The notes beneath the pieces are model-generated. The model was not told the DNA's origin, ran no database searches, and saw nothing but the letters and a program-made list of their open reading frames with translations. A stretch of 64,000 bases of DNA from Frankia casuarinae (GTDB taxonomy: Bacteria; Actinomycetota; Actinomycetes; Frankiales; Frankiaceae): the NCBI RefSeq assembly GCF_000013345.1, contig NC_007777.1, positions 1,612,001 through 1,676,000 on the forward strand, in the 5' to 3' direction. Below are positions 337-33,242 of this stretch, one piece after another (position 1 is the first letter of the stretch; the number at the start of each line of letters is the position of its first letter). The translations under genes and the position numbers were made by a program.

Positions 337-2562
337 TCAGCCCGGCCGCCGCCCCCAGTCCGGTGGCAGGGAGGATCCCCGGCTGCCGGCCCGGCCGTCG
401 AGGAACGAGATGCGGTCGTTGTTCGCGACCATCGCCGGGCTCGCGAGCCAGGCGGCATAGGCACGCCGCTGGGTCGGCGTCATCCGCGCGGACGGACGCG
501 GATTCCCCGAGGCGTCGAGGAAGTTCTCCGCCGGCGAGGTGATGAACCCGTCGGCCCTCGGATCGCCGGTGTAGACGCGGCACGGCCCGCCGGCGGGGGC
601 CACCGCGATCGGCCGGAGCGGGTCACGATCCCGGCGGGCCCAGAGCCGGCGGGCGCTGGTCTCGTAGGCCGCCGCCCAGCCGGGCAGGACCCGGGAGGCG
701 TCTCGCAGGTCCGCGACGACCTGGGCGGGGCGGGTGGTCGGCAGGTCGCTGTAACGGGCCCGGATCCAGGCCTCGATCATCTCCACGGTGACCCCGACGC
801 CCAGATGGACGAAGGTGCCCGGTGGGTTCGTCGGATCGATGGACTTGCCCACCTCCCCGAGCACGTCGAGCAGCACCGCCTGCTGCCGGCGGTGGGCGCC
901 GACCGCGTCGGCATGCTCGCGCAGCACCGCCTCGGTCGCATCGGCGAGGGCGCCGGCGAAGAACGCCTGCGCGCGTTCGACCCGCAGGTAGCCCAATGCC
1001 AGGGGGCTCGACGAATACCCGCCGGGGGCCGTTTTCCAGCCCTGGACCGAGGCGGCCACCTGGTCGTCGAGACGAAGACCGTAGGTCGTGACATCCTGGG
1101 CGAGCAGACCGGCCAGCGCCCCGCCGCGCAGGCACTCCCGCAACAGCGACTCCCACGCCTCGAGCGGGATCAGCTCGACCAGGGCGGACTGCGCCGCCGC
1201 GGCCCCGGCCTGCGGGTCCACCGTGGGACCGGGGACCACGGCGGTGACGGCGTCGTAGAGCTCGTCCCGATAGGTCCGTAGCGCCGGGACGAGGGCCGCC
1301 CGCAGCCGGAGGAGCAATGGCCGGTCACCGGTCGCCTGGACGGCCCCGGCCAGCCGGGAGACGAACGAGGCCGAGGCCCGCGGATCGGCACGGCGGCTCT
1401 CCTGGCTTCCCGCCGCGGCCACCAGCCGGATCCAGGCATCTTCCAGGGATCGGGCCGTCGCGAGATCCACCGGCAGCGGAAGGGCGAGCACGGCCGCGCC
1501 GCGCAGGATGGTGTCGATGTGGTCCGCCGCGAACCGGGCGGCCAGCGCCGGGGTCGCGGCGATGGCGTCCAGCAGCACCCCCTGGTAGTCGGTGACGGTC
1601 GGTCGGCCCCGGCTCGTGGGCCCGGCCGCGGCGGGGGCGAGCAGGCCGACGTCGTGCGGCGCCGACGGGGCGACCGCGGCGTCACCTGGTCCGTTACCCG
1701 GTCGGTCACCCGGTCCGAAGGCCATCCGGCCCAGCCGGTCTAGCAGCGCACTGTCGAGGCGGGCCGAGGCGAGCAGGGGGGTCAGTAGGACCGTCTCGGC
1801 CGTGTCGGTCCTCCCGGCGGTGTTGAACCGACCGAGCCAGGCGGCGTCGAGAGTTCGCCGGTGGCTGTAGGAGGCCAGGGTGGCGCCGAGGATCCGTTCG
1901 GCCTCCCGCCGGTCGAAGCCGAGCGGTTCGGGTGGACGGTGGACCATCGGCCCCCGCGACAGTCCCTCCACCCGGTAGAGCAGCCGCGCGAGCCCGTCGG
2001 GTCCCAGCGCGTCGTGAAAGCCCAGGACGAAGTCCGGATCGTTCATCCGGGACCGCAGCACGGTCAGCGCGTCACGCGGGGTGACCATGCCTGAGGCGTT
2101 TCCGCCCGTTCCGCCCCGGCCCGTTCCGCCCCGGCCCGTTCCGTGCCGGCCTGATCCGTGCCGGTCCGGCTCGTCCCCCCGCAGCGAGTGCGCCAACGCC
2201 CGTCCGGCGGCCACGGCCTGCTCGGAGGCGCGGGGCGCCTCGGAGGTACCAGGAATGCCCGGCGCCTCGCGGTGCACCGGCCGCCGAAGCGGGGCGGATG
2301 TCGGCCTGATCGTGATGCCGATCCCGTCGTCGACACCCTCGGCGAGACGCAGCCGGCGCCGCAGCATGGTGACCTCGGCCTTGACTTCGTCCTCCAGCGC
2401 GCCGAGCCGTTCCGCCGGGGTGGGCGGCAACCCGGCATCCGTCAACGCCGCGACGAGGGAGCGGGACCAGGAGCGCAGCAGATCCCCGGCCTCGGCCACG
2501 CTGGACACCAGCACACGCATCCGGTCGGGGTCGACGAGCACCCGGTCGCTTGGTCCGGGCAT
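337..2562 (-). CDS. Large helical protein of unknown function, partner of a WXG100-like protein
   Basis: About 741 residues, start ATG at 2562, five bases after the stop of the small WXG100-like gene, so the two probably form one operon. An in-frame upstream start would overlap that gene and was not used. The first ~90 residues look like a helical hairpin (VAEAGDLLRSWSRSLVAALT). They are followed by a Gly/Arg/Thr-rich linker made of GTGRG-type repeats encoded by a 15-base tandem repeat, then about 550 mostly helical residues without a motif I recognise. It resembles the large actinobacterial proteins that accompany ESX/type VII substrates (DUF6571-like), but that is an impression only. No signal peptide or membrane segment is obvious. 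Confidence 0.6.
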   Translation of the reverse strand: MPGPSDRVLVDPDRMRVLVSSVAEAGDLLRSWSRSLVAALTDAGLPPTPAERLGALEDEVKAEVTMLRRRLRLAEGVDDGIGITIRPTSAPLRRPVHREAPGIPGTSEAPRASEQAVAAGRALAHSLRGDEPDRHGSGRHGTGRGGTGRGGTGGNASGMVTPRDALTVLRSRMNDPDFVLGFHDALGPDGLARLLYRVEGLSRGPMVHRPPEPLGFDRREAERILGATLASYSHRRTLDAAWLGRFNTAGRTDTAETVLLTPLLASARLDSALLDRLGRMAFGPGDRPGNGPGDAAVAPSAPHDVGLLAPAAAGPTSRGRPTVTDYQGVLLDAIAATPALAARFAADHIDTILRGAAVLALPLPVDLATARSLEDAWIRLVAAAGSQESRRADPRASASFVSRLAGAVQATGDRPLLLRLRAALVPALRTYRDELYDAVTAVVPGPTVDPQAGAAAAQSALVELIPLEAWESLLRECLRGGALAGLLAQDVTTYGLRLDDQVAASVQGWKTAPGGYSSSPLALGYLRVERAQAFFAGALADATEAVLREHADAVGAHRRQQAVLLDVLGEVGKSIDPTNPPGTFVHLGVGVTVEMIEAWIRARYSDLPTTRPAQVVADLRDASRVLPGWAAAYETSARRLWARRDRDPLRPIAVAPAGGPCRVYTGDPRADGFITSPAENFLDASGNPRPSARMTPTQRRAYAAWLASPAMVANNDRISFLDGRAGSRGSSLPPDWGRRPG
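2105..2164 (-). repeat. 15-base tandem repeat, four copies, inside a coding region
   Basis: Four degenerate units of the form CCCGTTCCGCCCCGG encode the Gly/Arg/Thr linker of the large protein on the minus strand. The period is a multiple of three, so copy-number changes would keep frame. Confidence 0.85.
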
Positions 2563-2567
2563 GCGCG

Positions 2568-2849
2568 TCAGCCGACCTTCCGCGGCCCGCCGGGGCCCGC
2601 CGGGGCGAACGCTGTCTCGCGGACCTGCAACGCTGTCTCGCAGGCCTGCACGCACCGATCGAGGGCCATGGCCGCCTCCGCCGCGAGCCGCCGCATCCGG
2701 CGTTGCCAGACCTCGGCCTGACGACCCTCCCAGGCCTCGGCACCGACCGCCGAGATCCGCTCCAGCGCGGCGGCTACGTCCAGCCGGGCACGCCGGGCTT
2801 GGGTCAGGGCGACGGCCACCGTCGCGCGACGTCCCTCGGGCACCGTCAT
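2568..2849 (-). CDS. WXG100-like small helical protein
   Basis: 93 residues from ATG 2849 (a GTG six bases earlier is possible). Two helices flank a central AWEGRQAEVW segment with the Trp-x-Gly turn of WXG100/ESAT-6 proteins, and length and charge pattern fit that family. Such proteins form helical-hairpin dimers and are usually type VII (ESX) substrates. The gene precedes the large helical protein by five bases, as ESX-type pairs often do. No EccC ATPase or other secretion component is in the window, so export is unproven. A generic coiled-coil protein is the alternative. Confidence 0.6.
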   Translation of the reverse strand: MTVPEGRRATVAVALTQARRARLDVAAALERISAVGAEAWEGRQAEVWQRRMRRLAAEAAMALDRCVQACETALQVRETAFAPAGPGGPRKVG

Positions 2850-2933
2850 GCGCACACCACCCAGATCGTGATCAGGTTTACCGGTGGCGACGCTAACAGC
2901 GGCCCGCCCGCCCGCGCCCGCGCGGCGACGCGA

Positions 2934-3023
2934 CTGTGGATGACGCCGGTGCCGGTTCGGCCGCCTGTGGATGACGCCGGTGCCGGTTCAGCGCCGGTAA
3001 CGCCGGTTCAGCGCCGGTAACGC
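2934..3023. repeat. Nested intergenic direct repeats (31- and 20-base periods)
   Basis: A 25-base sequence beginning CTGTGGATGACGCCGG occurs at 2934-2958 and 2965-2989. It is followed by two exact 20-base copies beginning CGGTTCAGCGCC at 2984-3003 and 3004-3023. The second copy contains the stop codon and last codons of the minus-strand reductase gene. Confidence 0.9.
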
Positions 3024-3889
3024 AGGAACAGGACGTCGTCCTCGGCGAGGATCTGGGTCAGGGTGAGCGCGGCCGGTGCCGGCCACGGCTCGCCTTTCAT
3101 GATCCCGAGTCGGCCCGGTCCGGCCAGTACCGGGGCGATCGTCAGGCACAGCTCGTCGAGGAGACCCGCCGCGGCGAGCTGGGAGTGCAGCAGCGGACCG
3201 CCCTCGGTGAGGATGCGGGTCATTCCCCGTTCCGCCAGGGCCCGGACGGCGAGGTCGGGTTCAACGGCGCTGCCGCCGCAGATCGCGATGTCGGCGACCG
3301 CCGCCAGCCGCCGGCGCCGATCGAGGGGCGCGGTCTCGCAGGTCAGTAGCACCGGTCGGATCTCCCCGCGGAACAGCCGGGCACCCGGGTCGAAGCCCGC
3401 CGTCGCGGTCACGACCGCGATCGGGGGCACCGCCGCGAGCCCCGCGGCGACGCGCCGCTCCCTCCGTTCGGGCGGGATGACCACCGGCCCGTAGTTCTCC
3501 GTCCGGGCAGTGCCGGCACCGACCAGCACCACGTCGCTGAGCCAGCGCAGCAACCGGAAGACCCGCAGGTCGGCTTCCCCGCCCAGGGGGCCCGAGCGGC
3601 CGCCCACCTCGGCGGCCCCATCGACCGAGGCCACGAAGTTTGCCCGGATGTAGGGGGTATGCGCGGCGGACGGGGGGTAGGCGTACACCTCGTCGAGATC
3701 GATGTCCTCGATGTCCTCGACGGCCTCGATGTCCTCGATGGCCTTCCTCGCGAGCCCGGCGCCCGCCGCGGCCGTGGAGTCTGTGGTCGCTGCGGCGTCT
3801 GTGGTCGCCGCGGCCTTTCCGGGGGCCACCGCCCCGGCGGCCCCCGCGGAACCGGCGAACGGGGGTGGAACCGGGAAGATACGTCGCAC
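3008..3889 (-). CDS. RibD C-terminal-type pyrimidine reductase
   Basis: 293 residues from a GTG start. From about residue 75 the protein matches the dihydrofolate-reductase-like domain of RibD (YIRANFVASVDGAAE, VLVGAGTARTENYGP, ILTEGGPLLHSQL). It is expected to reduce the ribose side chain of an aminouracil intermediate of riboflavin synthesis with NADPH in the cytoplasm. The deaminase half of RibD is absent, as in the stand-alone actinobacterial pyrimidine reductases. Residues ~1-70 are a low-complexity Ala/Asp/Glu tail, partly encoded by a 9-base repeat (EDIEAVEDIEDI), which the fold should not need. The monocistronic location leaves the substrate unproven. Confidence 0.82.
   Translation of the reverse strand: MRRIFPVPPPFAGSAGAAGAVAPGKAAATTDAAATTDSTAAAGAGLARKAIEDIEAVEDIEDIDLDEVYAYPPSAAHTPYIRANFVASVDGAAEVGGRSGPLGGEADLRVFRLLRWLSDVVLVGAGTARTENYGPVVIPPERRERRVAAGLAAVPPIAVVTATAGFDPGARLFRGEIRPVLLTCETAPLDRRRRLAAVADIAICGGSAVEPDLAVRALAERGMTRILTEGGPLLHSQLAAAGLLDELCLTIAPVLAGPGRLGIMKGEPWPAPAALTLTQILAEDDVLFLRYRR
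3699..3743 (-). repeat. 9-base tandem repeat, five copies, in the reductase gene
   Basis: Five units of TCGATGTCC or a close variant encode the alternating acidic/hydrophobic segment near the N-terminus of the pyrimidine reductase. Confidence 0.9.
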
Positions 3890-4067
3890 CGGGCCGACTG
3901 TAACGGGCGACGGTGCTGGTCATCCGATCGGCGGCGAACCCAGGTCGGCGGCGAGCCCATGGCCGGCCCGGGGCCGATCAACCGTTGTGGTATCGCGGTC
4001 GTTGTGACGTCGGCCGCGATACCGCGGGCCGGGACGGCGGGTACGGGCGTCTCCGTACGCTGGGCGG

Positions 4068-5240
4068 GTGGCGCAGCGTCTCGTCGATCGCCGGCCGATT
4101 GTGCCGCCCGGGGACCTGGTCGCGGCGCTCGTCCCGCCGCCCCGGTTCGACGCGGTCCGGTTCGCCGGCTACCTGCCCGATCCGGCCGAGCCGAGCCAGG
4201 CCGCCGCGGTCATGGCGCTGTCCGCGTTCGCCGACCGGTTGACCGCCTCGTCCGGGCGGTCCAGCCGTTCAGATCGTTCCAGCCGTTCCAGCCGTTCCAG
4301 GTATGCGGGCCATTCTGGGAAGGGCGGCCTGTGCGGGCTCCTGACCCGGGGGACGGGGGTGTCGGGTCCGTTCGGATCGGGCCCGCGCCGTTCCGGAAGC
4401 GCCGGTCCGTCCGGAATGCGGCCGGGGGTGTACCTCGACGGCGGCTTCGGCGTCGGTAAGACCCACCTGCTCGCCTCGCTGTGGCACGCCGTGCCCGGTC
4501 CGAAGGCGTATGGCACGTTCGTAGAACTGACCTCCCTGGTCGGCGCGTTGGGATTCGCCGCGACCGCGCGGGCCCTCGCGGGCCTGCGCCTGGTCGCGAT
4601 CGACGAGTTCGAGCTCGACGATCCCGGCGACACGGTGCTGGTGTCCAGCCTGCTGACTCGGCTCGTCGAGGCCGGTGTCCACCTGGCCGCGACGAGCAAC
4701 ACCCAGCCGGAGGACCTCGGTGCCGGTCGGTTCGCCGCCGCCGACTTCCGCCGTGAGATCCAGGGTCTGGCGGCCAGCTTCGACATCCTCCGGGTGGACG
4801 GGGAGGACTATCGGCACCGGGGTCTTCCGGCCGCGCCCCCGCCGTGTACCGACGACGAGGTCGGCGCGCGGGCGGCTGCCGTGGAGGGGGCGACCGAGGA
4901 CGGATTCGCCGCGCTGTGCGAGCACCTCGCCGGGCTGCACCCCTCCCGGTACGGCGCGCTCGTGGCCGGGGTCACCCTGGTCTGCCTGCACCGGGTCGTG
5001 CCGGTCGAGGATCAGGCGGTGGCGTTGCGGGTGGTGGTCCTCGCCGACCGGCTCTACGACCGGTCGATCCCGGTCGTGGCCTCCGGCGTGCCCTTCGGGG
5101 AGCTGTTCGGAGCGGAGCTGCTCGCCGGGCCGCATCGCAAGAAGTACCAGCGGGCCATGTCCCGGCTGAGCGCGCTGGCTCGGGACGCCGCGGCGGGGAA
5201 CGACACCGCGGGCCGCGTCGCCGGGATGCTGCCCGGCTGA
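4068..5240 (+). CDS. zapE: ZapE/AFG1-family ATPase
   Basis: 390 residues from GTG 4068. The N-terminal PPPRFDAVRFAGYLPDP segment, Walker A GGFGVGKT (125-132), Walker B LVAIDE (175-180), sensor-like TSNTQPEDL and FRREIQ identify the AFG1/ZapE P-loop ATPases. These are linked to Z-ring function in proteobacteria and to membrane-protein turnover in mitochondria; the actinobacterial role is not established. Residues ~61-118, directly before Walker A, are an inserted Ser/Arg/Gly-rich stretch whose first part comes from a 9-base tandem repeat. The homologues I know lack this insertion. It has no operon partner. Confidence 0.85.
   Translation: MAQRLVDRRPIVPPGDLVAALVPPPRFDAVRFAGYLPDPAEPSQAAAVMALSAFADRLTASSGRSSRSDRSSRSSRSRYAGHSGKGGLCGLLTRGTGVSGPFGSGPRRSGSAGPSGMRPGVYLDGGFGVGKTHLLASLWHAVPGPKAYGTFVELTSLVGALGFAATARALAGLRLVAIDEFELDDPGDTVLVSSLLTRLVEAGVHLAATSNTQPEDLGAGRFAAADFRREIQGLAASFDILRVDGEDYRHRGLPAAPPPCTDDEVGARAAAVEGATEDGFAALCEHLAGLHPSRYGALVAGVTLVCLHRVVPVEDQAVALRVVVLADRLYDRSIPVVASGVPFGELFGAELLAGPHRKKYQRAMSRLSALARDAAAGNDTAGRVAGMLPG
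4258..4302 (+). repeat. 9-base tandem repeat, five copies, in the zapE-like gene
   Basis: Five units of GTTCCAGCC or a variant encode the Ser-Ser-Arg repeats inserted just before the Walker A motif. Confidence 0.9.
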
Positions 5241-5400
5241 CGCACCCGGCCGGGTGCGGCGGCCCGAACGTGCGGCTGACGCACCCGAGTGGGGTGTCGG
5301 AGCCTGCGGTCCGGACGCCGGACCGGCCGGAGTATCTGTTCGCCGTTCCGGGCGTGGACGACCCGCTGGCGGTTGTGCCGAGGCCTGCGACCATGGGTGC

Positions 5401-5502
5401 ATGGGAACCTACGTCGTGCTGCTCGTCATGGTGTTGTTGGTGGGGCTGGCGGTGCTGGGCGGACTCTATTTCGTGCTGTCCAGGGACCACACCCGGCGCT
5501 GA
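5401..5502 (+). CDS. Possible 33-residue single-pass membrane peptide
   Basis: ATG 5401 opens a short frame beginning MGTYVVLLVMVLLVGLAVLG and ending LSRDHTRR: one hydrophobic helix (residues ~4-27) and a basic tail. That composition fits a small inner-membrane protein with a cytoplasmic C-terminus. No good ribosome-binding site is visible, and the stop codon lies in the first unit of a 15-base repeat. The alternative is a chance frame in GC-rich DNA. The function is unknown. Confidence 0.4.
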   Translation: MGTYVVLLVMVLLVGLAVLGGLYFVLSRDHTRR

Positions 5503-5572
5503 CGGCTGGTGCGCTGACGGCTGGTGCGCTGACGGCTGGTGCGCTGAGGGCTGGTGCGCTGAGGGCTGGTGC
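5498..5572. repeat. 15-base tandem repeat, five copies, intergenic
   Basis: Three units GCTGACGGCTGGTGC and two units GCTGAGGGCTGGTGC lie head to tail between the small membrane ORF and the end of treZ, nine bases before the treZ stop. Confidence 0.95.
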
Positions 5573-5581
5573 GCGGACAGG

Positions 5582-7363
5582 TCAGCCAGCGGTCGGCTCG
5601 ACCGGGGGGAGCAGGCGGATGATCACGACCGACTCGCCGTCGAGTTCCACCCGTCCCGGCATGTAGGTGAACCCGTGGGCGGATGCGGCCGGGGCGTCGA
5701 ACGGGACGCCGTCGAGGGGGACGGCCTGCCGTTCGGCGGCCAGGTTCACGACGATCGCCACGTCGCCGCGACGGACCACCAGCCAGCGGGCCTCCTCGTC
5801 GAAGGTGCACGCGACCGAGGACCACGCCGGGTCGGTCAGCGCCGGCAGCCGGCGACGCAGCGCGATCAGCCGGCGGTGCCAGTCCAGCAGGTCGGAGTGA
5901 CCCTCCCGGCCTGGTTCGGACCAGTCGAGTTTCGACTGCTGGAAGGTCGCCGGGTCCTGGGGATCGGGAACGTCCTGCGGCTCCCAGCCGTGGGCGGCGA
6001 ACTCGGCGCGCCGACCCTCCCGCACCGCGTCCCCCAGCCCGGGGGCGGTGTGGTCGGTGAAGTACTGCCAGGGGGTGCGGGCACCCCACTCCTCGCCCAT
6101 GAACAGCATCGGGGTGACCGCCGAGGTGAGCAGCAGGGCCGCACCGATCCGGAGCAGGCCGTCGCTGAGCGTGGCTGACGCCCGGTCGCCGGCGGCCCGG
6201 TTGCCGATCTGGTCGTGGTTCTGCAGGAAGGTGACGAACCGGTAGGCGGGCGTGGTCGGGGGGATCGGCCGGCCGTGGGAGCGCCCGCGGAACGTCGAGT
6301 AGCCGCCGTCGTGGACGAACCCACTGGTCAGCGCGTGGGCGAGGGTCGAGATCGAACCGAAGTCCCCGTAGTACCCCTGCCGTTCGCCGGACAGGGTTGC
6401 CCACAGCGCGTGATGGATGTCGTCGCACCACTGCCCGTCCAGGCCGTACCCGCCGGCCTCGGGTGCGGCGACCAGTTTCGGGTCGTTGAGGTCCGACTCG
6501 GCGACGGCGAACAGCGGGCGGCGCAGCTGGGCGCCGAGCCGGTGGACCGCCTCGGCGATCTCCTCCAGCAGGTGCAGTGCCCGGCTGTCCTGAAAGGCGT
6601 GGACGGCGTCGAGACGCAGCCCGTCGCAGTGGTAGTCGCGCAGCCAGGACAGGGCGCTGTCGATGATGAACGTGCGGACCTCGTCGGAGCCGGGGGCGTC
6701 GAGGTTGACCGCGGGGCCCCACGGAGTGCTGTAGCGGTCGGTGAAGTAGGGCCCGAAGCGGCCGAGGTAGTTGCCGTCCGGACCGAGATGGTTGTAGACG
6801 ACGTCCATGATCACGCCGAGGCCGCGAGCGTGCGCGGCGTCGACGAAGCGCTTGAGCCCGTCCGGGCCGCCGTAGGGCTCGTGCACCGCGAACAGACCGA
6901 CGCCGTCGTAACCCCAGCCGTGCCGGCCCGGGAAGGCGTTGACCGGCAGCAGTTCGATGGCGTCGATGCCGAGCTCGACGAGATGGTCGAGCTTGCCGAT
7001 GGCCGCGTCGAAGGTGCCCTCCGGGGTGAACGTCCCGACGTGCAGCTCGTAGAGCACGCTGCCGGCCAGCGCGATGCCCCGCCAGGTCCCGTCGGTCCAG
7101 GGGAAGGTCGAGTGGTCAACCAGCCGCGACCGGCCGTGAACCCCCAGCGGCCCCGGCTGCCAGGCCGATCGGGGGTCGGGCAGCTCCTCGCTGCCGTCGT
7201 CGAGCAGGAAGGCGTAGTCCGTGCCATGCTTCGCGGACGGGACGTTGACCCACCACCACCCCCGTTTCCCGGCGGTCATCTCGTGCGTCGAGTCGCCGGC
7301 GGAGCCCGCCACGACCAGGCTGACCGTCTTCGCCTCAGGGGCCCACAGCCGCAGGGTGCTCAT
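5582..7363 (-). CDS. treZ: Malto-oligosyltrehalose trehalohydrolase
   Basis: 593 residues from ATG 7363, the normal length for TreZ. An N-terminal beta-sandwich (1-~95) precedes a GH13 barrel with region I DVVYNH (187-192), region II GLRLDAVH with nucleophile D252, acid/base E289 in AVAESD, and region IV QNHDQIGN with D384. The enzyme releases trehalose from maltooligosyl-trehalose in the cytoplasm, the last step of the TreY-TreZ route from glycogen. treY and treX lie upstream on the same strand but are separated from it by 694 bases with a CRISPR-like array, so treZ probably has its own promoter. Confidence 0.95.
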   Translation of the reverse strand: MSTLRLWAPEAKTVSLVVAGSAGDSTHEMTAGKRGWWWVNVPSAKHGTDYAFLLDDGSEELPDPRSAWQPGPLGVHGRSRLVDHSTFPWTDGTWRGIALAGSVLYELHVGTFTPEGTFDAAIGKLDHLVELGIDAIELLPVNAFPGRHGWGYDGVGLFAVHEPYGGPDGLKRFVDAAHARGLGVIMDVVYNHLGPDGNYLGRFGPYFTDRYSTPWGPAVNLDAPGSDEVRTFIIDSALSWLRDYHCDGLRLDAVHAFQDSRALHLLEEIAEAVHRLGAQLRRPLFAVAESDLNDPKLVAAPEAGGYGLDGQWCDDIHHALWATLSGERQGYYGDFGSISTLAHALTSGFVHDGGYSTFRGRSHGRPIPPTTPAYRFVTFLQNHDQIGNRAAGDRASATLSDGLLRIGAALLLTSAVTPMLFMGEEWGARTPWQYFTDHTAPGLGDAVREGRRAEFAAHGWEPQDVPDPQDPATFQQSKLDWSEPGREGHSDLLDWHRRLIALRRRLPALTDPAWSSVACTFDEEARWLVVRRGDVAIVVNLAAERQAVPLDGVPFDAPAASAHGFTYMPGRVELDGESVVIIRLLPPVEPTAG

Positions 7364-7545
7364 CGGTCTTGTCTACCTGCCAGAGCCGTCGGACACGCCG
7401 TGACGGCGACAATGGTGACGACATCGGTCCCCGGCCGAAGGCGCCCGGCTGCCCGGCATGCCGAGCCGGATGGCACCGAGATGGCAGCGAGGTAGTCCCC
7501 GGAGGGGAGGGCAGCCGCCGCGCGATGCCTCCACATCTTGATCGT

Positions 7546-7563
7546 ATGGCACCGTTATGCCAT
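7546..7563. promoter_or_regulatory. Candidate operator, perfect inverted repeat
   Basis: ATGGCA-N6-TGCCAT, a perfect 6-base dyad, lies 183 bases upstream of the treZ start and 97 bases before the first CRISPR-like repeat. It could bind a dimeric regulator of treZ or belong to the array leader. Only the symmetry supports it. Confidence 0.3.
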
Positions 7564-7659
7564 GATTTTGCTGTCGTGATGTTCGACCGGAGGTTCGCTG
7601 CACTCCCGCCCCTCCGCCGGGCCTACGACACGCCGTCCCACCTGCGCGTTGATTTTCGG

Positions 7660-7821
7660 GTCCTCATGATCCCTACGAGGGATTGCAACATGATCATGAC
7701 GAACCGGCGGGTGGGCCACCACCAGGTCCTCATGATCCCTACGAGGGATTGCAACATGACCATGACGAACCGGCGGGTGGGCCACCACCAGGTCCTCATG
7801 ATCCCTACGAGGGATTGCAAC
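7660..7821 (+). CRISPR. Minimal CRISPR-like array: three identical 30-base repeats, two near-identical spacers
   Basis: Three exact 30-base repeats lie at 7660-7689, 7726-7755 and 7792-7821. Each starts GTCCTCATGATCCCT and ends AGGGATTGCAAC, with a 6-base stem (ATCCCT/AGGGAT) around a 3-base loop. The hairpin and the TTGCAAC end are typical of CRISPR repeats and suggest plus-strand transcription. The two 36-base spacers (7690-7725, 7756-7791) differ at one position only, the fifth base (T or C). No cas gene is in the window, so the array is an orphan here. The alternative reading is a 66-base tandem duplication of one repeat-spacer unit, or an unrelated minisatellite. Confidence 0.65.
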
Positions 7822-8057
7822 ATGACGGGCGTGAGCCGGTGCGCGATGTCATTTGCCAGGAGCCTGGGACCAGGGTCTTGCCATGACCTAGGGACCATCT
7901 TGCGGCTGCCGGGACCTTGCCGCACGCGCGGTGGAACGCACGGGCGGCTGAACGGTCTGGCTCAGGGTCGGTGAGAGGCAGGCGACCCAGCCGTGAGCCG
8001 CCCCTGCCAGCCCGGCCGCGGGCCACCAGATGTTGGCCGGGGCCGGCCTGCCGCGTG

Positions 8058-10553
8058 CTACGCGCGGACGAGCAGGCTCACCGGGAAGTCGCGTAGCAGC
8101 CGGAGCACATAGGCGGTGCCGCCGTCGTGCTTGCGGCCGGTGAGCACGTCCGTCCAGCGTCCCTCGGGCAGGGGGATGGTGGTGTCCCGCCAACCGCCGC
8201 CGCGGCGCAGGCCGAGGACAAGCCGGGGCACCACGGTGACGACGGACTCGGACCGGCTGAAGGCGACGACGTTCTCCGCGGCCGAGCCGGAGGCCCACAG
8301 CGGCCGGTAGATCGCGTCCGCCCCGAACCATTCGGGATGGTCGCGGCGGGTCCGTAGCGCCCGGGCGACGACGAGCAGCTTCGCCGCGCCGGAGTCGTCG
8401 AGGGTCGGCGGGCGCCGCGGCGCACCGGTCTCGGCGGTCGACTCCACACCGATCTCGGCGAGCAGCTTGGTGCGGTCACCGTAGTTGACCGCCCGCCGGT
8501 TGTCCGGATCGACGAGGGAGAGATCCCACAGCTCCTGGCCCTGGTACACGTCCGCCACCCCCGGCATGGTCAGCTGGAGCAGCTTCTGGGCCAGCGAGTT
8601 CTGCCGGCCCAGCTCCACCAGCGTGGCGACGTACCGCTCCAGGATGCCGACGAACTCGTCGTCCTCCAGCACTGACTCGATGTAGTTCGTCAGGGCCGCC
8701 TCGTAGCCGGGGTCCTGGTCGGTCCAGCTCGTGTGGGTCTTCGCTTCCCGGACGGCCTTGAGCATGTACTGCGTGGCCCGGTCGGCGGGCAGCGGCCAGG
8801 CGCCGACCAGGGTCTGCAGCAGGAAGTAGACGGTGACCCGGTCGGGCCAGCCCTGCTCGGTGTCGCGGTGGCGTTCCCCGAGCCGCGCGAGCCGGCCGGC
8901 CACCTCGGCCCAGCCGCGGGGGTCCTCAGACAGCACCGCGAGCCGGGCCCGCACATCCTCCGACCGCTTGGTGTCATGCGTGGACAGGGTGGTCATCGTC
9001 AGTGGCCAGTTTCGCTGGACCGACAGGTTCGCCTCGTGGAACTCGGTGACGGCGCTGCGTGGGTGCCCGGTCGTGAACGCCGGGAAGCGGCCGGGGTTGC
9101 CGCCGACCTCGTTCAGTGCCAGCAGCCGGGCATACCGGTAGAAGGCGGTGTCCTCGATGCCCTTGGCCATCACCGGCCCACAGGTCTGCTGGAACCGGAC
9201 GACGAACTCGGCCGGCCCGCCCAGCGCCAGGTCCTCGATGAGATCGACCTCGGTCGCCCGCCCCGGCAGGTGGGACCGGGCCTGCTCGCAGGCGCGGACC
9301 ACGTGCCCGCGGGCCTCCAGGCTCGGCGTGCCGTCTGGGCGGATGTAGGCCCGGTAGACGTCGAAGGCGGCGAGGATCTCGCACATCGCTTCGTGCAGAC
9401 CGGTTCGGGTGAGGTCGGCCCGGGCCTCCCTGGCCTCCCCGAGCGCGAGGCTTGTCAGCCGGTCCACCTCGGGCTGGAGCACGCCCGCGAGGACGTCGAG
9501 CTTGGCGGCCCGCGCCTCGGCCTCGTAGTCGGGGTCCGCACGGGTGATCTCGCCGTAGAGCACCGCGAGGGGATGACCCGCCATCGGGTCGAGAAACAGC
9601 CGGGTCAGCCGGCCGATCCCCTCGTAGCCGGTGGTGCCGTCGCAGGCCCAGGTGTCCGGCAGCGCCTCGTCATCCTCCAGGATCTTCTCGACGACGGTCC
9701 ACACCCCGCCGGTGGCCTCCGACAGCCGGCGCAGGTAATCTTCCGGGTCCGCGAGCCCATCCGGATGGTCGATGCGCAGCCCGTCGAAGGTCCCCGCGCG
9801 GACCTGTTCGATGAGAATCCGGTGCGTGGCGGCGAACACGTCCGGGTCCTCCTGGCGCAGCGCCGCCAGGGTCGTGATATCGAAGAACCGCCGGTAGTTC
9901 AGCTCGGTCGCGGCGACCCGCCACCAGCACAGCCGGTAGAACTGCGCGTCGAGGGTCGCGGCGACGTCGTCGGGGTTGGCGGTGCCCGCGGCGACGGGCA
10001 GCACGTGGTCGTAGTAGACGACGACCCAGTCGCCGTCCTCGTCCTGTTCGACGGAGATCTCCCCGGCCGCCAGGCAGTCGGCGAGCCCGGCGCCCAGGAT
10101 CGGCACCAACACCCGGCCGGGGTTGTCGGGGGAGGCCCAGTCGATGTCGAACCAGCTGGCGTAGGGGGATTCGGGTCCCTCGCGCAGCACCGACCACCAG
10201 GCCGCGTTCGTCGTTTCCGGGGCGATCGCCATGTGGTTGGGGACGACGTCGACGATCAGGCCGAGTCCCGCCTTGCGGCACGCGGCGACGAGCCGGCGCA
10301 GCCCGCCGGCTCCCCCCAGCTCGGGATTGATCTGCCCGTGCTCGACGACGTCGTAGCCGTGGGTCGAGCCGGGCGCGGCCTCCAGCACGGGCGAGAGGTA
10401 CAGGTGGGAGACGCCGAGCGTGGCCAGGTAGGGGACGACGACCGCCGCATCGGTGAGGGAGAAGTCCAGGTTGAGCTGGAGCCGGTAGGTGGCGGTCGGT
10501 ACCACCCGGTCGGCGCCGTACCCCCCGTCGGGGTGCGTCGGGTCAGCTGACAC
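8058..10553 (-). CDS. treY: Maltooligosyl trehalose synthase
   Basis: 831 residues. The enzyme isomerises the reducing-end alpha-1,4 bond of maltodextrins to an alpha,alpha-1,1 bond, giving maltooligosyl-trehalose for TreZ. Visible motifs are the N-terminal ATYRLQL (21-27), VDVVPNH (101-107) and [10 protein letters not shown] with nucleophile D262, in the order and spacing of GH13 TreY enzymes; length is slightly above usual. The start at 10553 overlaps the end of treX by 11 bases, so the two genes are almost certainly cotranscribed and coupled. A slightly later start near VVPTATYRL would still give a complete enzyme. Confidence 0.95.
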
Positions 10554-12822
10554 GGCGCAGCACGACGGTCGAGCGGGCGTCGAGTTCGATGGGATCGCCG
10601 GCCTTCACGGCCCTTCCCATGCTCGCGGGATCGAGGGCCGAGTGGAGCAGCGCGGTGTCGCTGAGCCGGGCGTCGACCTCGGCCGTCGACGCCCGGGTGT
10701 CGACGACGATCTCCCACGAACTGCCGAAACTGGTCGCCGGCGCCTGGAACCCGACCGGTTCATGGTGGGCATTGAAGAACAGCAGGAACGAGTCGTCGAT
10801 GATGGCCTGGCCCAGCGCGTCGGGGTCCGGTATCCCCTCACCGTTGAGGTAGACGCCGAGTGATCGCGCCGTCCCGGACTCCCAGTCGCTGTCGGACATC
10901 TCCGTGCCGTCCGGGCGGAGCCAGGCGATGTCCTTGACGGCGGGGTCGTCCTTGACGGCGGGGTCGTCGCCGGAGCGCCCGCCACTGCCGTCCGCGTCCT
11001 GGCCGCCCGCCTGCCCGCCGGTGACCGCCTCGGCCGCGCCGTGCGTCGTGCCGCCCTGCCCGCGCAGCGACTTGCCCTGGAAGAACCGGCGGCGGCGGAA
11101 GATCGGATGATCATGGCGCAGCCTTGACAGCATGCCGGTGAACTCGATCAGGTCGGCGTTGCGCTCGGCGTCGGACCAGTCCAGCCAGGAGATCGGGTTG
11201 TCCTGGCAGTACGCGTTGTTGTTGCCCTGCTGGGTGCGTCCCATCTCGTCTCCGGCGACCAGCATCGGCACCCCCTGGGACAGCAACAGCGTCGTCAGCA
11301 GGTTACGGGTCTGCGCGGCGCGCAGGGACAGGACGGTCGGGTCGTCGGTGGGCCCTTCGACTCCGCAGTTCCACGACCGGTTGTCGTCGGAGCCATCCCG
11401 ATTGTCCTCGCCGTTGGCTTCGTTGTGTTTTTCGTTGTAGGAGACCAGGTCGTGCAGGGTGAACCCGTCGTGCGCGGTGATGAAGTTGATCGATGCCCAC
11501 GGCCGGCGCCCGCTGTTCTCGTACAGGTCGCTCGATCCGGTCAGCCGGGAGGCGAACTCGGCGATCCCGTGGTCCTGCCCGCGCCAGAAGCCGCGGACGG
11601 TGTCGCGGTATTTACCGTTCCACTCGGTCCACAGCGGGGGGAAGTTCCCCACCTGGTAACCGCCCTCGCCGAGGTCCCACGGTTCCGCGATCAGCTTGAC
11701 CTGGGAGACCACCGGATCCTGCTGGACGAGGTCGAAGAACGATGACAGCCGGTCGACGTCGTAGAACTCCCGGGCCAGGGTCGCCGCGAGATCGAACCGG
11801 AACCCGTCCACGTGCATGTCGGTGACCCAGTAACGCAGCGAGTCCATGATCAGTTGTAGCACGTGCGGGTGTCGTACCCGCAGGCTGTTGCCGGTGCCCG
11901 TGTAGTCCATGTAGTACTGGGGACGGTTGTCCACGAGCCGGTAGTAGGCGCTGTTGTCGATGCCGCGGAAGCACAGCATCGGACCCATGTGGTTGCCCTC
12001 GGCGGTGTGGTTGTAGACGACGTCGAGGATCACCTCGATTCCGGCCTCGTGCAGGTTCTTGACCATTCCCTTGAACTCCTGCACCTGGCGGCCGTGGCCG
12101 CCGGAGGCGGAGTAGCCGCTGTGCGGCGCCAGGAACGCGATGGAGTTGTAGCCCCAGTAGTTGCGCAGCCCGCGGCTGACCAGATGCTCGTCATGGACGA
12201 ACTGGTGCACCGGCAGCAGCTCGATCGCGGTCACGCCGAGCTTGCGATAGTGGTCGATCATCACCGGGTGGGCGACTCCCGCGTAGGTCCCGCGGTACTC
12301 CTCCGGCAGGCCGGGATGGTTCTTGGTCAGCCCCCGGACATGCGCCTCGTAGATCACCGACTCGTTGTAGGGCCGGCGTGGCGGGCGGTCCCCGTTCCAG
12401 TCGAAGAACGGGCTGATTACCACCGACTTCATCATGTGGGGGCCGGAGTCGGCGTCGTTGACGCTGTCGGGGTCGCCGAAGGTGTAGGGGAACACCGCCT
12501 GGTCCCAGGCGACCTCCCCGTCGACCGCCTTCGCGTACGGGTCGAGGAGGAGCTTGGTGGAGTTGCAGCGCAGCCCTCGGGCGGGGTCGTAGGACCCGTG
12601 GACCCGATAGCCGTAGCGCTGGCCCGGTCCCACGGTGGGAAGGTAGGCGTGCCAGACGAAGGCGTCCCGTTCCCGCAGGTCGATCCGCTCCTCGTTGCCC
12701 GCGTCGTCGAACAGGCACAGCTGGACCCGGTCGGCGACCTCGGAGAAGATCGCGAAATTTGTGCCCGATCCGTCGTATGTGGCGCCCAGGGGATAGGGGC
12801 TGCCGGGCCATACCTGTGACAT
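10543..12822 (-). CDS. treX: Glycogen debranching enzyme, TreX/GlgX type
   Basis: 759 residues from ATG 12822 ([18 protein letters not shown]); an in-frame ATG 17 codons upstream is less likely because the family starts near this sequence. A CBM48-like domain (1-~120) precedes a GH13 barrel with [18 protein letters not shown] and [17 protein letters not shown]. The enzyme cleaves alpha-1,6 branches of glycogen and supplies linear chains to TreY, which follows with overlap. Late in the protein there is a Gly/Asp-rich insertion of ~50 residues (around [20 protein letters not shown]), partly made by an 18-base repeat, just before the conserved [12 protein letters not shown]. Confidence 0.93.
10931..10966 (-). 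repeat. 18-base tandem repeat, two copies, in treX
   Basis: Two exact units of TCCTTGACGGCGGGGTCG encode the repeated DDPAVK in the C-terminal insertion of the debranching enzyme. Confidence 0.9.
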
Positions 12823-12947
12823 ACGACCGAAGCCTACGGGCCGAACGGTATTCGCGGGCCGGGGTCGCTTCATCCCGGGTTCGCGGGGCCTGCGATCCTT
12901 GAAGATTCTTTGATCGCCTGCTGAACGCCGCAGTCTATCATGGAGTC

Positions 12948-13382
12948 ATGTCCGACGGGACGATCTGGATCGTCATCGCCGGCGCCCTGGTCGTCGGCGA
13001 ACTACTGACGCTGGACCTGACGCTGGCGATGTTCGCGCTGGCCGCGCTCATCGGGGCCGGTGTCGCGCTGCTCGGCGTCGATCTGGTCTGGCAGATCGTC
13101 GCCTTCGTGGTCGCGGCGGGTGGATTTGGGCTGGGACTGCGTCCGGTGGCGAAGCGTCAGCTGCAACGTACGCCGCCCCTGCTCACGGGTGCCGACGCGC
13201 TCGTCGGAGAGCGCGCGATGGTGGTGGAGCGGGTCGACGGCGGCGGGGGTCGCGTGAAGATCAAAGGAGAGATCTGGTCGGCTCGGTCCTACCCCACCAC
13301 CACCGTGCTCGAGGCCGGCAGCGAGGCGCGGGTGCTGCGCATCGATGGTGCCACCGCCATCGTCCACAGTTTCGAGCTCTGA
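12948..13382 (+). CDS. NfeD-family membrane protein
   Basis: 144 residues with three closely spaced membrane helices (about 6-20, 25-43, 47-64) and a C-terminal soluble part (~75-144) with the OB-fold pattern of NfeD proteins (ALVGERAMVVERV, GRVKIKGEIWSARS). NfeD proteins pair with SPFH/stomatin partners in membrane microdomains, and an SPFH gene follows 127 bases downstream in the same direction. It belongs to the short NfeD class without a protease domain. Function is inferred from family and neighbourhood. Confidence 0.88.
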   Translation: MSDGTIWIVIAGALVVGELLTLDLTLAMFALAALIGAGVALLGVDLVWQIVAFVVAAGGFGLGLRPVAKRQLQRTPPLLTGADALVGERAMVVERVDGGGGRVKIKGEIWSARSYPTTTVLEAGSEARVLRIDGATAIVHSFEL

Positions 13383-13509
13383 CGACCGGGGCCCCGGCGC
13401 CCCCGGCGATGCCAGTGGATGTGACAGCGCCGACATCGGGCCGGCCGGCCTTCAACCGGCCGGCATCGGGACGGCCGACATCGAGGGGGCTGACAGTGAG
13501 GGGTACGCC

Positions 13510-14454
13510 ATGGCAGGAGTGATCGCCGCCGCGGTGATCGCGGTGGTCCTACTGATTTTTCTGGTCCGGGCGGTGCGCATCGTGCCGCAGGCGCGCGCGA
13601 TGGTCATCGAACGGCTGGGCCGGTATCACCGCACGCTGACGCCGGGCCTCGCGATCCTGGTCCCGGTTGTCGACCGGGTCCGTGACCGCATCGACCTTCG
13701 GGAGCAGGTGGTCAGCTTCCCGCCGCAGCCGGTGATCACCGAGGACAACCTGGTGGTCGGGATCGACACGGTGATCTACTTCCAGGTCACCGACCCGCGG
13801 GCGGCGACCTACGAGATCGCGAACGTGATCCGGGCGATCGAGCAGCTGACCGTCACCACTCTGCGCAACGTGATCGGTGGGATGAACCTGGAGGCGACCC
13901 TCACCTCGCGGGACCAGATCAACGGGCAGCTGCGCGGCGTGCTCGACGAGGCCACCGGAAGGTGGGGAATCCGGGTCAACCGGGTGGAGCTCAAGGCCAT
14001 CGATCCGCCGAAGTCCATCCAGGACTCGATGGAGAAGCAGATGCGGGCCGAGCGGGACCGCCGGGCCGCGATCCTGACCGCGGAAGGCGTCAAGCAAAGC
14101 GAGATCCTGCGGGCCGAGGGGGAGAAGCAGGCCGCGATCCTGCGGGCCGAGGGGGAGCGGGAGGCGCAGATCCTCACCGCTCAGGGCGAGGCCCAGGCGA
14201 TCGACACCGTCTTCCGGGCGATCCACGAGGGTGACGCGGACCAGAAACTGCTGGCCTACCAGTACCTGCAGACGCTGCCGCGGATCGCCCAGGGGCAGGC
14301 GAGCAAGTTGTGGATCGTGCCCAGCGAGCTGACCACCGCCCTCGGCGGCCTCGGTGGCCTGTTCGGCGGTGCGGACCAGGCGGACAAGACCGTCGGGACC
14401 CGTCCCGCGCCCTCCGAGGGCCCGTCCGCGGGACCTCCGTCAACCGGTTCGTAA
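13510..14454 (+). CDS. SPFH/stomatin-like membrane protein
   Basis: 314 residues from ATG 13510, preceded by a good GAGGGG ribosome-binding site. An N-terminal membrane anchor (3-20) is followed by the SPFH domain (RIVPQARAMVIERLGRYHRT, VDRVRDRIDLREQ) and a coiled coil (~175-245) of near-repeats such as SEILRAEGEKQAAILRAEGE. The C-terminus is Gly/Pro/Ser-rich. Members form large membrane rings or scaffolds and act with NfeD proteins, here encoded just upstream. It could also be called QmcA-like. The molecular task in actinobacteria is not settled. Confidence 0.9.
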   Translation: MAGVIAAAVIAVVLLIFLVRAVRIVPQARAMVIERLGRYHRTLTPGLAILVPVVDRVRDRIDLREQVVSFPPQPVITEDNLVVGIDTVIYFQVTDPRAATYEIANVIRAIEQLTVTTLRNVIGGMNLEATLTSRDQINGQLRGVLDEATGRWGIRVNRVELKAIDPPKSIQDSMEKQMRAERDRRAAILTAEGVKQSEILRAEGEKQAAILRAEGEREAQILTAQGEAQAIDTVFRAIHEGDADQKLLAYQYLQTLPRIAQGQASKLWIVPSELTTALGGLGGLFGGADQADKTVGTRPAPSEGPSAGPPSTGS

Positions 14455-14473
14455 CTCCCGGGTCTCCCGGCCC

Positions 14474-14505
14474 GGCGGTCCGGCGGCTCGGCGGTCCGGC
14501 GGCTC
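14474..14505. repeat. 16-base tandem repeat, two copies, intergenic
   Basis: Two exact units of GGCGGTCCGGCGGCTC lie 20 bases after the SPFH gene. The period is not a multiple of three, as expected for non-coding DNA. Confidence 0.9.
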
Positions 14506-14743
14506 GTCGGCCGTCGTCGCCTGATCTTTTCGGGTGACCCGCCTCCTCGGATGACCTGCCCGATCGGCCCATCCCGAGCCCGTCACCAATGGTTGGTGCG
14601 GACAAGACTTCCGGCCATTTAGTGATACTTCAGGAGGAGGTAGGGCTAGTCCGCTGAGCCGGACCATGGGACGATTCACTCAGCCGAACGGGGGCGGGTC
14701 GACGGGCGCAGGGGAAGGCGTTCCTCGTCGACGGAGGTCCCGC

Positions 14744-15286
14744 GTGGTCGCAATGTCCCCGACAGCTCGTGAGCTGTCATCCGGCTCGTCGTCCTTCGCC
14801 GTGCCGGGCAAGCTGGCGGTTCTCGCCTGTCCGCCGGCGCTGTGCCCGCACCTGGAGTTCACCGTGTCCGGCGTTCTGTCGTCGCCAGTGTCGTTGACCT
14901 GGACGGCGCAGCCCGGCATGCCCGGATTTCTCTTCGCCGGGCTGGAGTGGCGGGCGTCGCCTGCTACCGCGGGGCGGGTGGCTAGCGCGCTGCGCCGGCT
15001 CGGGCATGTCACGTTCGAGACCGTCGAGGGACCCTCACCAGGGTGTGACGCCGAGCGGTACTCATACACCCCCGAGCTAGGGCTGCACCGCGCCGCGATC
15101 GCCGCGAACGGGGACGTCGTCGTGGGGGAGGCGGCGCTGCGGGCTCTGCTGGAACGGGGGGAAGCCCGGGAGACGCTCTCCCGGGGCCTGCACCGGCTGC
15201 TCGGAACCGCCTGGGACGACGTGCTCGAACCGCTGCGCCGGGGCGCCCACGGCGCCCCGGTCACCTGGCTGCGCCGGACCGGGTAG
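14744..15286 (+). CDS. DUF3145 family protein
   Basis: 180 residues. GTG 14744 is chosen because GGAGG lies six bases upstream; ATG 14753 is the alternative. The segments PPALCPHLEFTVSGVL, LTWTAQPGMPG and RYSYTPELGLHRA match my memory of DUF3145, a family conserved in actinobacteria with no assigned function. No membrane segment or signal peptide is seen. The last codons form the left arm of a perfect 23-base inverted repeat whose loop contains the stop codon. Confidence 0.8.
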   Translation: MVAMSPTARELSSGSSSFAVPGKLAVLACPPALCPHLEFTVSGVLSSPVSLTWTAQPGMPGFLFAGLEWRASPATAGRVASALRRLGHVTFETVEGPSPGCDAERYSYTPELGLHRAAIAANGDVVVGEAALRALLERGEARETLSRGLHRLLGTAWDDVLEPLRRGAHGAPVTWLRRTG

Positions 15287-15319
15287 CCGGGTGGGGGCAG
15301 CCAGGTGACCGGGGCGCCG
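15250..15319 (+). terminator. Perfect 23-base-pair hairpin spanning the DUF3145 stop codon
   Basis: Bases 15250-15272 (starting CGGCGCCCCGG) and 15297-15319 are exact reverse complements, with a 24-base loop that includes the stop at 15284-15286. No T tract follows, which is common for actinomycete terminators. It could also protect the mRNA 3' end. Confidence 0.6.
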
Positions 15320-15577
15320 GCCGTGCCGTCCGGCTGCCGCGGGAGAGCTGCCGGACGTCGGCCGGGCGGGCTGGCGGGGTGGACGAGGCTCCTGGGCTGC
15401 GGAAGATCAGTGCGGCAACGTCGTCGGTCAAGGCCAGGGGATTCTCCGGGGCGTCTGAGGGCCGAGGGTGTGGTGAAGCCCACATCGGGGTAGCGCGGGT
15501 CTGACGGGCACATACCCCGGCGGTCGTGCGTTGTGGGTTGCGCACGACTACGCACAACTTCTCTGGGAGTTACTTCA

Positions 15578-15871
15578 GTGGCCACCGATTACGACACCCC
15601 TCGTACAGCTGACATCGAGGACGCCTCGGAGCAGAGCCTCGAGGCCCTCAAGGCTCGGCGGGCGGACGCGGCGGCTGATCTCGGTGACGACGTTGATCCG
15701 TTCGAAACCGAGCTCGGCCTGCCCGGCGCCGACCTGTCGGGCGAGGAGCTGAACGTCCGCGTGCTGCCGCGCCAGGCCGACGAGTTCACCTGCACGCAGT
15801 GCTACCTGGTGCATCACCGCAGCCAGCTCGTGGACGAGCGACGGATGATCTGCCGGGACTGCGCGGCCTGA
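15578..15871 (+). CDS. DUF4193 family small zinc-ribbon-like protein
   Basis: 97 residues from GTG 15578, giving the family-typical start (M/V)ATDYDTPR; a GGGAG site lies about eight bases upstream. The protein is acidic, with LPGADLSGEELNVRVLPRQ and two Cys pairs (CTQC and CRDC) that probably bind one zinc; the intervening LVHHRSQL is diagnostic. DUF4193 is highly conserved in actinobacteria and unassigned. It is monocistronic, with about 290 non-coding bases upstream that probably hold its promoter. Confidence 0.9.
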   Translation: MATDYDTPRTADIEDASEQSLEALKARRADAAADLGDDVDPFETELGLPGADLSGEELNVRVLPRQADEFTCTQCYLVHHRSQLVDERRMICRDCAA

Positions 15872-15982
15872 CCGACCGCATGGTCCGATCGGCTCTTGGT
15901 CAGTCTCCACCGCCGAGGACAGCTCCACGATCAGTTCGGGCTCGACCGCTACCGGCGGTTCGGGCTCGTCTGGTCCGGCTTC

Positions 15983-16570
15983 TCACCCGACCAGAACGCC
16001 GGCGTCCCGCAGGCGTGCCACGGCTCGCTCGTCGTCGCCCGGGCGCAGGTTGACGAACCTGGTGAGGTCGAGTGGCAGCAGCACCTTCAGGCCCCGCAGC
16101 CGGGCGTCCAGCGCGCTCTCCTGGACGCAGTAGTCGCCGGCCAGCCCGACGACCACCACCCTCGACACGCCCAGCTGTGCCAGCCGTTCACCGAGCACCG
16201 TGGCGGCCCGCCGCCCCGATGCCGGGTCACGCACCGAGAAGGCCGAGTAGCCGTCGCTGCCGTCGACCCCCTTGCGGATCACCTCACCCTTGACGATCAG
16301 GTCGGGATGGAACTGGGCGCCGGGGGTGTCCCCGACGCAGTGCGGCGGCCAGATCCCGCCGCCGGTGACGAAGTGCGGGGTCTCGTGCGGGTGCCAGTCC
16401 TGGCTGTAGAAGACCGGGGAGCCGGCGGCCACCGCCGCGGCGATCTCCGCATTGATCCCGGCGATGATCTGCTCACCGCCGGCCACGTAGAGGCTGCCGG
16501 CCGGATCGGTGAAGTCGTTCTGCACGTCCACGATCAGCAGGGCGGTCCCCGGCCCGTAACGCTGACTCAT
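15983..16570 (-). CDS. pncA: Nicotinamidase
   Basis: 195 residues from ATG 16570; a GGGGACAC-like site lies just upstream. The isochorismatase-like fold shows the catalytic triad D15 (IVDVQNDF), K100 (VIRKG) and C148 (GDYCVQ), and the metal ligands D58, H60, H66 (SQDWHPHETPHF) and H77 (WPPHC), all as in mycobacterial PncA. It hydrolyses nicotinamide to nicotinate and ammonia for NAD salvage in the cytoplasm. The upstream region is occupied by six degenerate 18-base repeats, so its promoter must lie in or beyond them. Confidence 0.93.
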   Translation of the reverse strand: MSQRYGPGTALLIVDVQNDFTDPAGSLYVAGGEQIIAGINAEIAAAVAAGSPVFYSQDWHPHETPHFVTGGGIWPPHCVGDTPGAQFHPDLIVKGEVIRKGVDGSDGYSAFSVRDPASGRRAATVLGERLAQLGVSRVVVVGLAGDYCVQESALDARLRGLKVLLPLDLTRFVNLRPGDDERAVARLRDAGVLVG

Positions 16571-16611
16571 CGTCGTGTCCCCTCCGCCGCGCTCCGCCCT
16601 CGCGTCGCGGT

Positions 16612-16719
16612 GTACCCACCTCTCCCGGTGTACCAATCTGTCCCGATGTACCCGTTCATCTCGATGCACCCGTTTGTTCCGATACGCCCGCCTGTCCCGG
16701 CGTACCCGTCCGTTCGGTA
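16612..16719. repeat. 18-base degenerate tandem repeat, six copies, upstream of pncA
   Basis: Six units resembling GTACCCGTCTGTCCCGAT lie head to tail 41-149 bases upstream of the pncA start. In the minus frame they would read VHRDR-like repeats continuous with pncA, but the ATG at 16570 with its own ribosome-binding site makes them more likely an untranslated leader. Confidence 0.85.
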
Positions 16720-16796
16720 CGACCACACTGTCACATTTTCGACACGCCCGCGTCGATATCCCTGATCATGATGGTGTGTCGGCTTAGGTTCGCAGG

Positions 16797-31940: not shown

Positions 31941-32459
31941 ATGCGGGTGCTGGGGGTCGATCCGGGGCTGACCCGGTGTGGCCTGGGGGTCGTCGACGGT
32001 GGCCTCGGCATCCGGGCCCACCTGGTCGAGGTGGGGGTGGTGCGCACCCCCGCCACCGCCGAGGTCGCCGAACGGTTGTGCGCCGTGTCCGATGGCATCG
32101 ACGCCTGGCTCGATCGCACCCGCCCGGAGGCGGTCGCGGTCGAGAAGGTCTTCAGCCAGGCGAACATGCGTACCGTGATGGGCACCGCGCAGGCCGGGGC
32201 GGTCGCCATCGTGCTGGCCGCCCGGCGAGGCCTGCCGGTGGGTCTCTACACGCCCAGTGAGGTGAAGGCCGCGGTGACCGGCAGCGGCCGGGCGGACAAA
32301 GCGCAGGTCAGTTTTATGATCACCAGATTGCTCGGGCTGACCGAGGCGCCACGCCCGGCCGACGCGGCGGACGCCCTCGCGTTGGCGCTCTGCCACCTGT
32401 GGCGTGGGCCGGCGCTGGCCCGGTTCCGTTCCGCCGCGCCGGGCGGACCCACCCGATGA
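31941..32459 (+). CDS. ruvC: Holliday junction endonuclease RuvC
   Basis: 172 residues from ATG 31941, with GGGAGG five bases upstream. An RNase-H-like resolvase with acidic catalytic residues D7 (VLGVDPG), E69 (VAVEKVF), D141 and D144 ([14 protein letters not shown]). It cleaves Holliday junctions in recombination repair with RuvAB. It overlaps ruvA by four bases (ATGA). Confidence 0.97.
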
Positions 32460-33199: not shown

Positions 33200-33242
33200 G
33201 GGCCGTTATGACGCCGCCATGCGGCGCGCGACCGCGTCGGGC

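Follow-up and report, generated by a model that had tools for sequence, protein, structure and literature searches.

The short array of repeats between the trehalose genes treY and treZ of Frankia casuarinae CcI3 raises two questions: whether it is a CRISPR array at all and, if so, how it came to stand there with two spacers that differ by a single base. The first-pass annotation had described it as an orphan CRISPR-like array of three exact 30-base repeats and two 36-base spacers with a one-base difference, and both its coordinates and its sequence proved exact. The location between treY and treZ is likewise borne out, as both flanks are matched by curated NCBIfam models. The window (the whole 64,000-nucleotide stretch of DNA analysed here) contains the following features around the array.

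5582-7363, minus strand: treZ, flanking gene outside the array (TIGR02402, 745.8 bits; cut-off 538.8)
7536-7659, plus strand: CRISPR leader (remnant), directly 5' of repeat 1, placed by leader alignments with relatives
7660-7689, plus strand: CRISPR repeat 1
7690-7725, plus strand: spacer 1, leader-proximal, T at 7694
7726-7755, plus strand: CRISPR repeat 2
7756-7791, plus strand: spacer 2, C at 7760, otherwise the same as spacer 1
7792-7821, plus strand: CRISPR repeat 3, terminal, without degeneration
8058-10553, minus strand: treY, flanking gene outside the array (TIGR02401, 900.4 bits; cut-off 498.65)

All three 30-bp repeats are identical, and the sole difference between the two 36-bp spacers lies at spacer position 5. 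With up to 3 mismatches allowed, a 29-base repeat core is matched 3 times in the window versus 0 times in 100 dinucleotide shuffles, which excludes chance as the source of the array. A hairpin core had also been noted in the repeat; a 7-bp stem (GAUCCCU/AGGGAUU, -7.9 kcal/mol) is indeed present, but its stability is unexceptional when compared to shuffled sequences (z -1.35; 22 of 200 fold as well). No degenerate extra repeats were found above shuffles in the window trailer, and a search of Rfam over positions 6500-9000 returned only two sub-threshold matches, neither of them on the array. The array lies inside a mechanical 201-aa ORF (7369-7974) to which we give no weight; this ORF stays in frame through the array, the 66-bp period being divisible by 3.

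The tandem period is exactly 66, with 99% matches reported by TRF, and there is no spacer diversity, as would be expected of a 66-bp minisatellite that happens to resemble CRISPR. Absence of spacer diversity is a criterion for flagging false CRISPRs in the part of PMC5294841 that was available. Against this reading, the match of the third copy is restricted to the repeat, 1 base 5' of it and 4-5 bases 3' of it: past the last repeat, identity continues for 4 bases when compared to spacer 1 (ATGA) or 5 when compared to spacer 2 (ATGAC). According to the first-pass annotation, a minisatellite would be favoured if the repeat were missing from all other arrays of the genome and its relatives and no small RNA were made; the repeat is, in fact, present in relatives.

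Within the CcI3 genome (5,433,628 bp, single contig) the window 30-mer occurs only at this array, even with up to 3 mismatches, and the exact 30-mer had 0 matches in a genome contig collection from which close relatives of the window have possibly been left out. Allowing for degeneracy, the repeat is present in 5 of the 13 genus genomes, CcI3 included: 3 copies in CcI3 itself (G000), 2 in F. canadensis ARgP5 (G002), 1 in G004, 15 in Frankia sp. AiPa1 (G007), and 2 in G011. At the level of the family, the repeat family is found in 10 of 35 genomes, again including CcI3, with up to 100 copies in one of them (G020, 74+26). Three relatives (G002, G004, G007) carry it in the treY-treZ gap, and its orientation there agrees with that of the window array. 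In G011 it is located on another contig, together with cas genes, where it adjoins a transposase-family ORF and has an integrase ORF approximately 4 kb away. The repeat of the window is therefore one that is common to arrays with diverse spacers and cas genes.

A leader conserved with arrays of the same repeat family is found at one end of the array. The window leader (~124 bp) aligns end to end with that of the type I-B array of AiPa1 (local score 77; best of 500 shuffles 41), and also with the leader of F. canadensis ARgP5 (local score 68; best of 500 shuffles 51). No alignment was obtained with the 250 bp located 5' of the G004 repeat (score 27; shuffle mean 24.6). When named genomes were scanned for the leader-repeat junction, 5 contigs were identified, all from Frankiaceae. 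Two of the 5 are the AiPa1 and ARgP5 junctions again and so are not independent, while the 3 additional junctions are from Parafrankia sp. EUN1f (two contigs) and Candidatus Frankia meridionalis. The blocks GATGT..GAC, ACACGCCG and GCTGCA are common to all six leader rows (the window plus the five junctions). The last leader block, GTTnATnnTCGG, is present in all five junctions by construction, as it is part of the search pattern, but the similarity of the five leaders to that of the window also includes blocks that lie upstream of this pattern-fixed stretch.

In Frankia sp. AiPa1 the treY-treZ gap measures 21 kb. A type I-B set of cas genes is located there, along with a leader and an array of 15 repeats whose 14 spacers are unrelated to one another. 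The cas genes found in this gap are given below with their PADLOC scores.

cas6b: 305.6 bits; above the Pfam cut-off, below the NCBIfam cut-off
cas8b: weak, 34 bits; nothing in Pfam or NCBIfam
cas7b: 163.4
cas5b (66.9) and cas3b (674.5): domains in a single ORF
cas4b: 269.6; cas1b: 326.1; cas2b: 90.6

The AiPa1 locus and that of the window have the same site, orientation and leader, their repeats agree at 27 of 30 bases, and the spacer length of the window falls within the AiPa1 range. By contrast, AiPa1 keeps its cas set and 14 unrelated spacers, whereas in the window cas genes are missing and the two spacers are copies of a single sequence. The ORF of AiPa1 that contains both Cas5b and Cas3b domains is 1165 aa in length (L082:13249-16746, minus strand), and a 1041-aa ORF with Cas3 domains is found in G011 (L035:14379-17504, minus strand). 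Either Cas5 is fused to Cas3 in this I-B lineage, or two genes share one open reading frame.

The repeat of the window is thus present in the arrays of relatives, where the spacers are diverse; the locus is the same, and the leaders match. On these grounds we reject the minisatellite, the probability of which we regard as negligible. The designation as an orphan CRISPR-like array holds, given that repeat family, locus, orientation and leader are shared with relatives, one of which has type I-B cas genes at this very place. It is a genuine orphan CRISPR array, of an ordinary kind and with a clear history, and is very probably what is left of a type I-B locus at a fixed site.

That history can be followed across the genus, where treY and treZ lie on one contig in 11 of the 13 genomes (the exceptions are G005 and G012). 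The full locus is found in AiPa1. G004 contains cas6 (83% identity, 242/242 aa) and cas8b (67.5%, residues 67-470 of 509), followed by one repeat and then a degenerate one. A leader with a short array is found in CcI3 (3 repeats) and in ARgP5 (2), while G006 and G008 have no repeat in the gap, which is occupied by 7 kb of other DNA. In 5 of the 11 genomes (G001, G003, G009, G010, G011) the gap is empty and measures 247-286 bp by match ends (~265 bp in G011). As judged by sequence comparison, these states seem to form a graded decay among relatives, from the full locus via cas6 and cas8b with one repeat, and then a leader with 2-3 repeats, to the empty gap. The terminal repeat in the window is not degenerate, and the trailers of AiPa1 and G004 hold degenerate repeats. 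The array of F. canadensis ARgP5 resembles that of the window in consisting of a leader and a very short array, in a gap where no cas genes were detected; it differs in having 2 repeats and a different spacer, and its gap measures 7.6 kb and contains a two-component system and a BTAD-type regulator as well. More generally, the content of the treY-treZ gap varies among Frankia genomes, with a response regulator and a histidine kinase in G002, G006, G007 and G008, and a BTAD-type regulator in G002, G005 and G006. The treZ gene of G011 (contig C77) has one in-frame TGA in the assembly.

On a tree of treZ and treY, in which G005 and G012 were scored by assumption as being without the site, the four site-bearing genomes are split by a branch with 98/98 support, with G002 and G007 on one side and CcI3 and G004 on the other. 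This split is compatible with one old arrival followed by repeated loss. The site label requires a minimum of 4 changes, compared to a mean of 3.6 for shuffled labels; there is no clustering, so that several arrivals or repeated gain are also compatible with the tree. The site, orientation and leader that are held in common argue for one arrival rather than several, and we suggest loss in preference to a separate arrival.

Taken together, the array very probably represents the leader and last repeats of a decayed type I-B locus, an inert orphan in which one spacer has been duplicated. An ancestor of this Frankia lineage would once have carried a type I-B CRISPR-Cas locus in its treY-treZ gap. 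Loss of the cas genes in the lineage of the window would have left an orphan array that is most likely neither processed nor extended now. The 66-bp repeat-spacer unit was most likely duplicated in tandem, either by replication slippage or by unequal recombination between repeats, and one spacer base would have changed after the duplication.

Analysis of the CcI3 genome is consistent with this loss. PADLOC gave no Cas match for any of the 10 main ORFs of 337-16726, nor did a Pfam scan for any of 7 of these, and tblastn with the ORFs of the relatives' loci L031-L035, cas genes included, detected no cas piece in 7300-8200. An orphan array is one with no cas genes nearby (within 10 kb, in the available part of PMC5294841); here the ORFs scanned, none of which has a Cas match, cover 7.3 kb on the left side of the array and 8.9 kb on its right side. 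The genome-wide search comprised Cas6 (PF01881), Cas7b and Cas1. PF01881 had no match in CcI3, while the same search was positive in 5 of 14 control genomes. Cas7b of AiPa1 had no match in CcI3 either, in a search that included no control, though the same query aligns to G011 at 86%. The only Cas1 matches are those at 31 kb and 3.97 Mb, next to arrays whose repeats differ from that of the window. The search for the repeat and for cas genes suggested in the first-pass annotation therefore leaves the repeat at this array only, with no Cas6-family protein or Cas7b found in the genome. As far as tested, there is neither a Cas6-family processing enzyme nor a Cas7b effector partner, and the array is thus most likely inert. 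Its perfect repeats and non-degenerate terminal repeat could nevertheless reflect recent activity or selection.

Other arrays of CcI3 are located at 32 kb (32,161-34,505; 39 repeats, 38 spacers), at 3.97 Mb (21 repeats, 20 spacers) and at 3.905 Mb, where a 20-base word occurs 14 times from 3,904,917 onward. A CcI3 CRISPR is named NC_007777_3904715_3905896 in the available part of PMC4852346, and the 14 occurrences fall within the span given by this name. According to the part of PMC3188489 that was available, CcI3 has four putative arrays, two of them near cas genes, and three with 38, 15 and 20 spacers. Since these three are all placed elsewhere, the fourth is presumably the treY-treZ array. 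The same source, to the extent available, reports RNA-seq of CcI3 in which reads were not reliably mappable across arrays. Beyond this count of four, no description of the treY-treZ array was found in the available portions of the Frankia and CRISPR literature; a type I-B paper (PMC12231136) mentions Frankia only in passing in the part available.

There remains the origin of the two spacers, which are identical at 35 of 36 positions and equal in length (36). Independent uptake is expected to give unrelated spacers, so equal length and near identity favour duplication. We compared all spacer pairs in eight arrays, namely those of the window, CcI3 at 32 kb and 3.97 Mb, AiPa1, and the array parts in L090-L093; the 3.905-Mb array of CcI3 was left out. 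Repeated spacers occur in three arrays besides that of the window: CcI3 at 32 kb (16=34, 18=36), L090 (21=22) and L092 (5=16). L090 belongs to the same repeat family and has 24 spacers, of which 21 and 22 are adjacent and exact copies, with a variant repeat copied along with them. It is a direct precedent for tandem duplication within this family. Unrelated spacers, which the window lacks, are thus a usual sign of CRISPR and no strict requirement; given the 35/36 identity, we class the array as a remnant that has one spacer in duplicate, rather than as a working one. Duplication of arrays via misalignment of repeats in replication is discussed in PMC8047081, which in the part available says that direct data are lacking. 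In the 32 kb array of CcI3 the two pairs are at equal offset, which suggests block duplication.

The alternative is that the spacers were acquired separately, the second from a variant of the invader with a change in the seed, as in re-immunisation against an escape mutant. The sole difference, at spacer position 5, lies within the seed of type I guides, acquisition beside a fixed motif would give spacers with the same start, and spacer 1 is leader-proximal, as a newer uptake would be. On the other hand, both spacers are 36 bp in length although the spacers of AiPa1 vary from 35 to 40 bp, exact tandem duplicates are known in the same repeat family (L090), and no credible protospacer was found in the genus genomes, viral contigs, phages or plasmids searched. 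The spacers match only the array itself in CcI3 and the other genus genomes (n=13, up to 3 mismatches), and two exact patterns had no match in viral contigs. Spacer 1, which alone was used for phages and plasmids, matched 3 phage records (best E 1), and the best plasmid match listed, among the best 20 of 85 records, has an E of 0.1. Among the plasmid matches listed, one covers at least 80% of spacer 1, that of Rhodococcus sp. JS3073 (92% covered, 84.8% identity), which we treat as chance (E 4). A search of both spacers against phage, plasmid and Frankia genomes had been proposed at the outset; it was thus carried out, with viral contigs added and with spacer 1 standing for the pair in phages and plasmids, and gave no credible target. 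To our knowledge, most spacers of soil actinobacteria have no protospacer in databases. We consider separate acquisition unlikely. Tandem duplication of one 66-bp unit, followed by a point mutation, is the most likely origin of the spacer pair, and of the three readings offered by the first-pass annotation a duplicated unit that has since mutated fits best with the L090 precedent and the equal spacer lengths.

The third of those readings, adoption of the repeats for another function in the trehalose locus, finds no support, as the 5 relatives with an empty gap keep both treY and treZ. More broadly, the array might be kept for some other job, its transcript regulating treZ, treY or another gene, or being used in trans by another Cas system. 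Three undegraded repeats, a recognisable leader, and a position upstream of treZ on the opposite strand speak for such a role. However, the spacers have no further match within 3 mismatches in CcI3, no Cas6-family or Cas7b partner was found, the two cas-linked arrays of the genome have different repeats, and the gap is empty in 5 of the 11 genomes with both genes on one contig. Such a role is very improbable. We give equally little credence to a version in which leader and array were retained after loss of the cas genes, with a transcript that is processed by another nuclease to guide-like RNA or acts at the treZ promoter region. Processing of the array would be expected to yield ~60-70-nt small RNAs from 7660-7821, each starting with an 8-nt 5' ATTGCAAC handle.

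The decayed type I-B locus of the window has parallels among orphan or isolated arrays such as that of Streptococcus pyogenes (PMC5294841, in the part available), which also have no cas genes nearby and a repeat unlike that of the resident systems. In some S. pyogenes strains, the same portion of that source describes a spacer duplication like the pair in the window. Unlike such orphan arrays, that of the window has a complete counterpart, which a relative carries in the corresponding position. The treY-treZ gap would thus provide a natural series of type I-B locus erosion at one chromosomal site in related nitrogen-fixing symbionts, spanning the complete locus, leader with array, and empty gap. 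It also illustrates that leader and site can identify a short array as genuine even when it has no spacer diversity and would be discarded by a diversity filter. None of this implies a new mechanism. On contig 125 of G011 (L035), the I-B family is found near integrase, transposase-family and T4SS_pilin-family (55.4 bits) ORFs, with a stretch of N next to the array, and this copy of the I-B locus is perhaps a mobile one.
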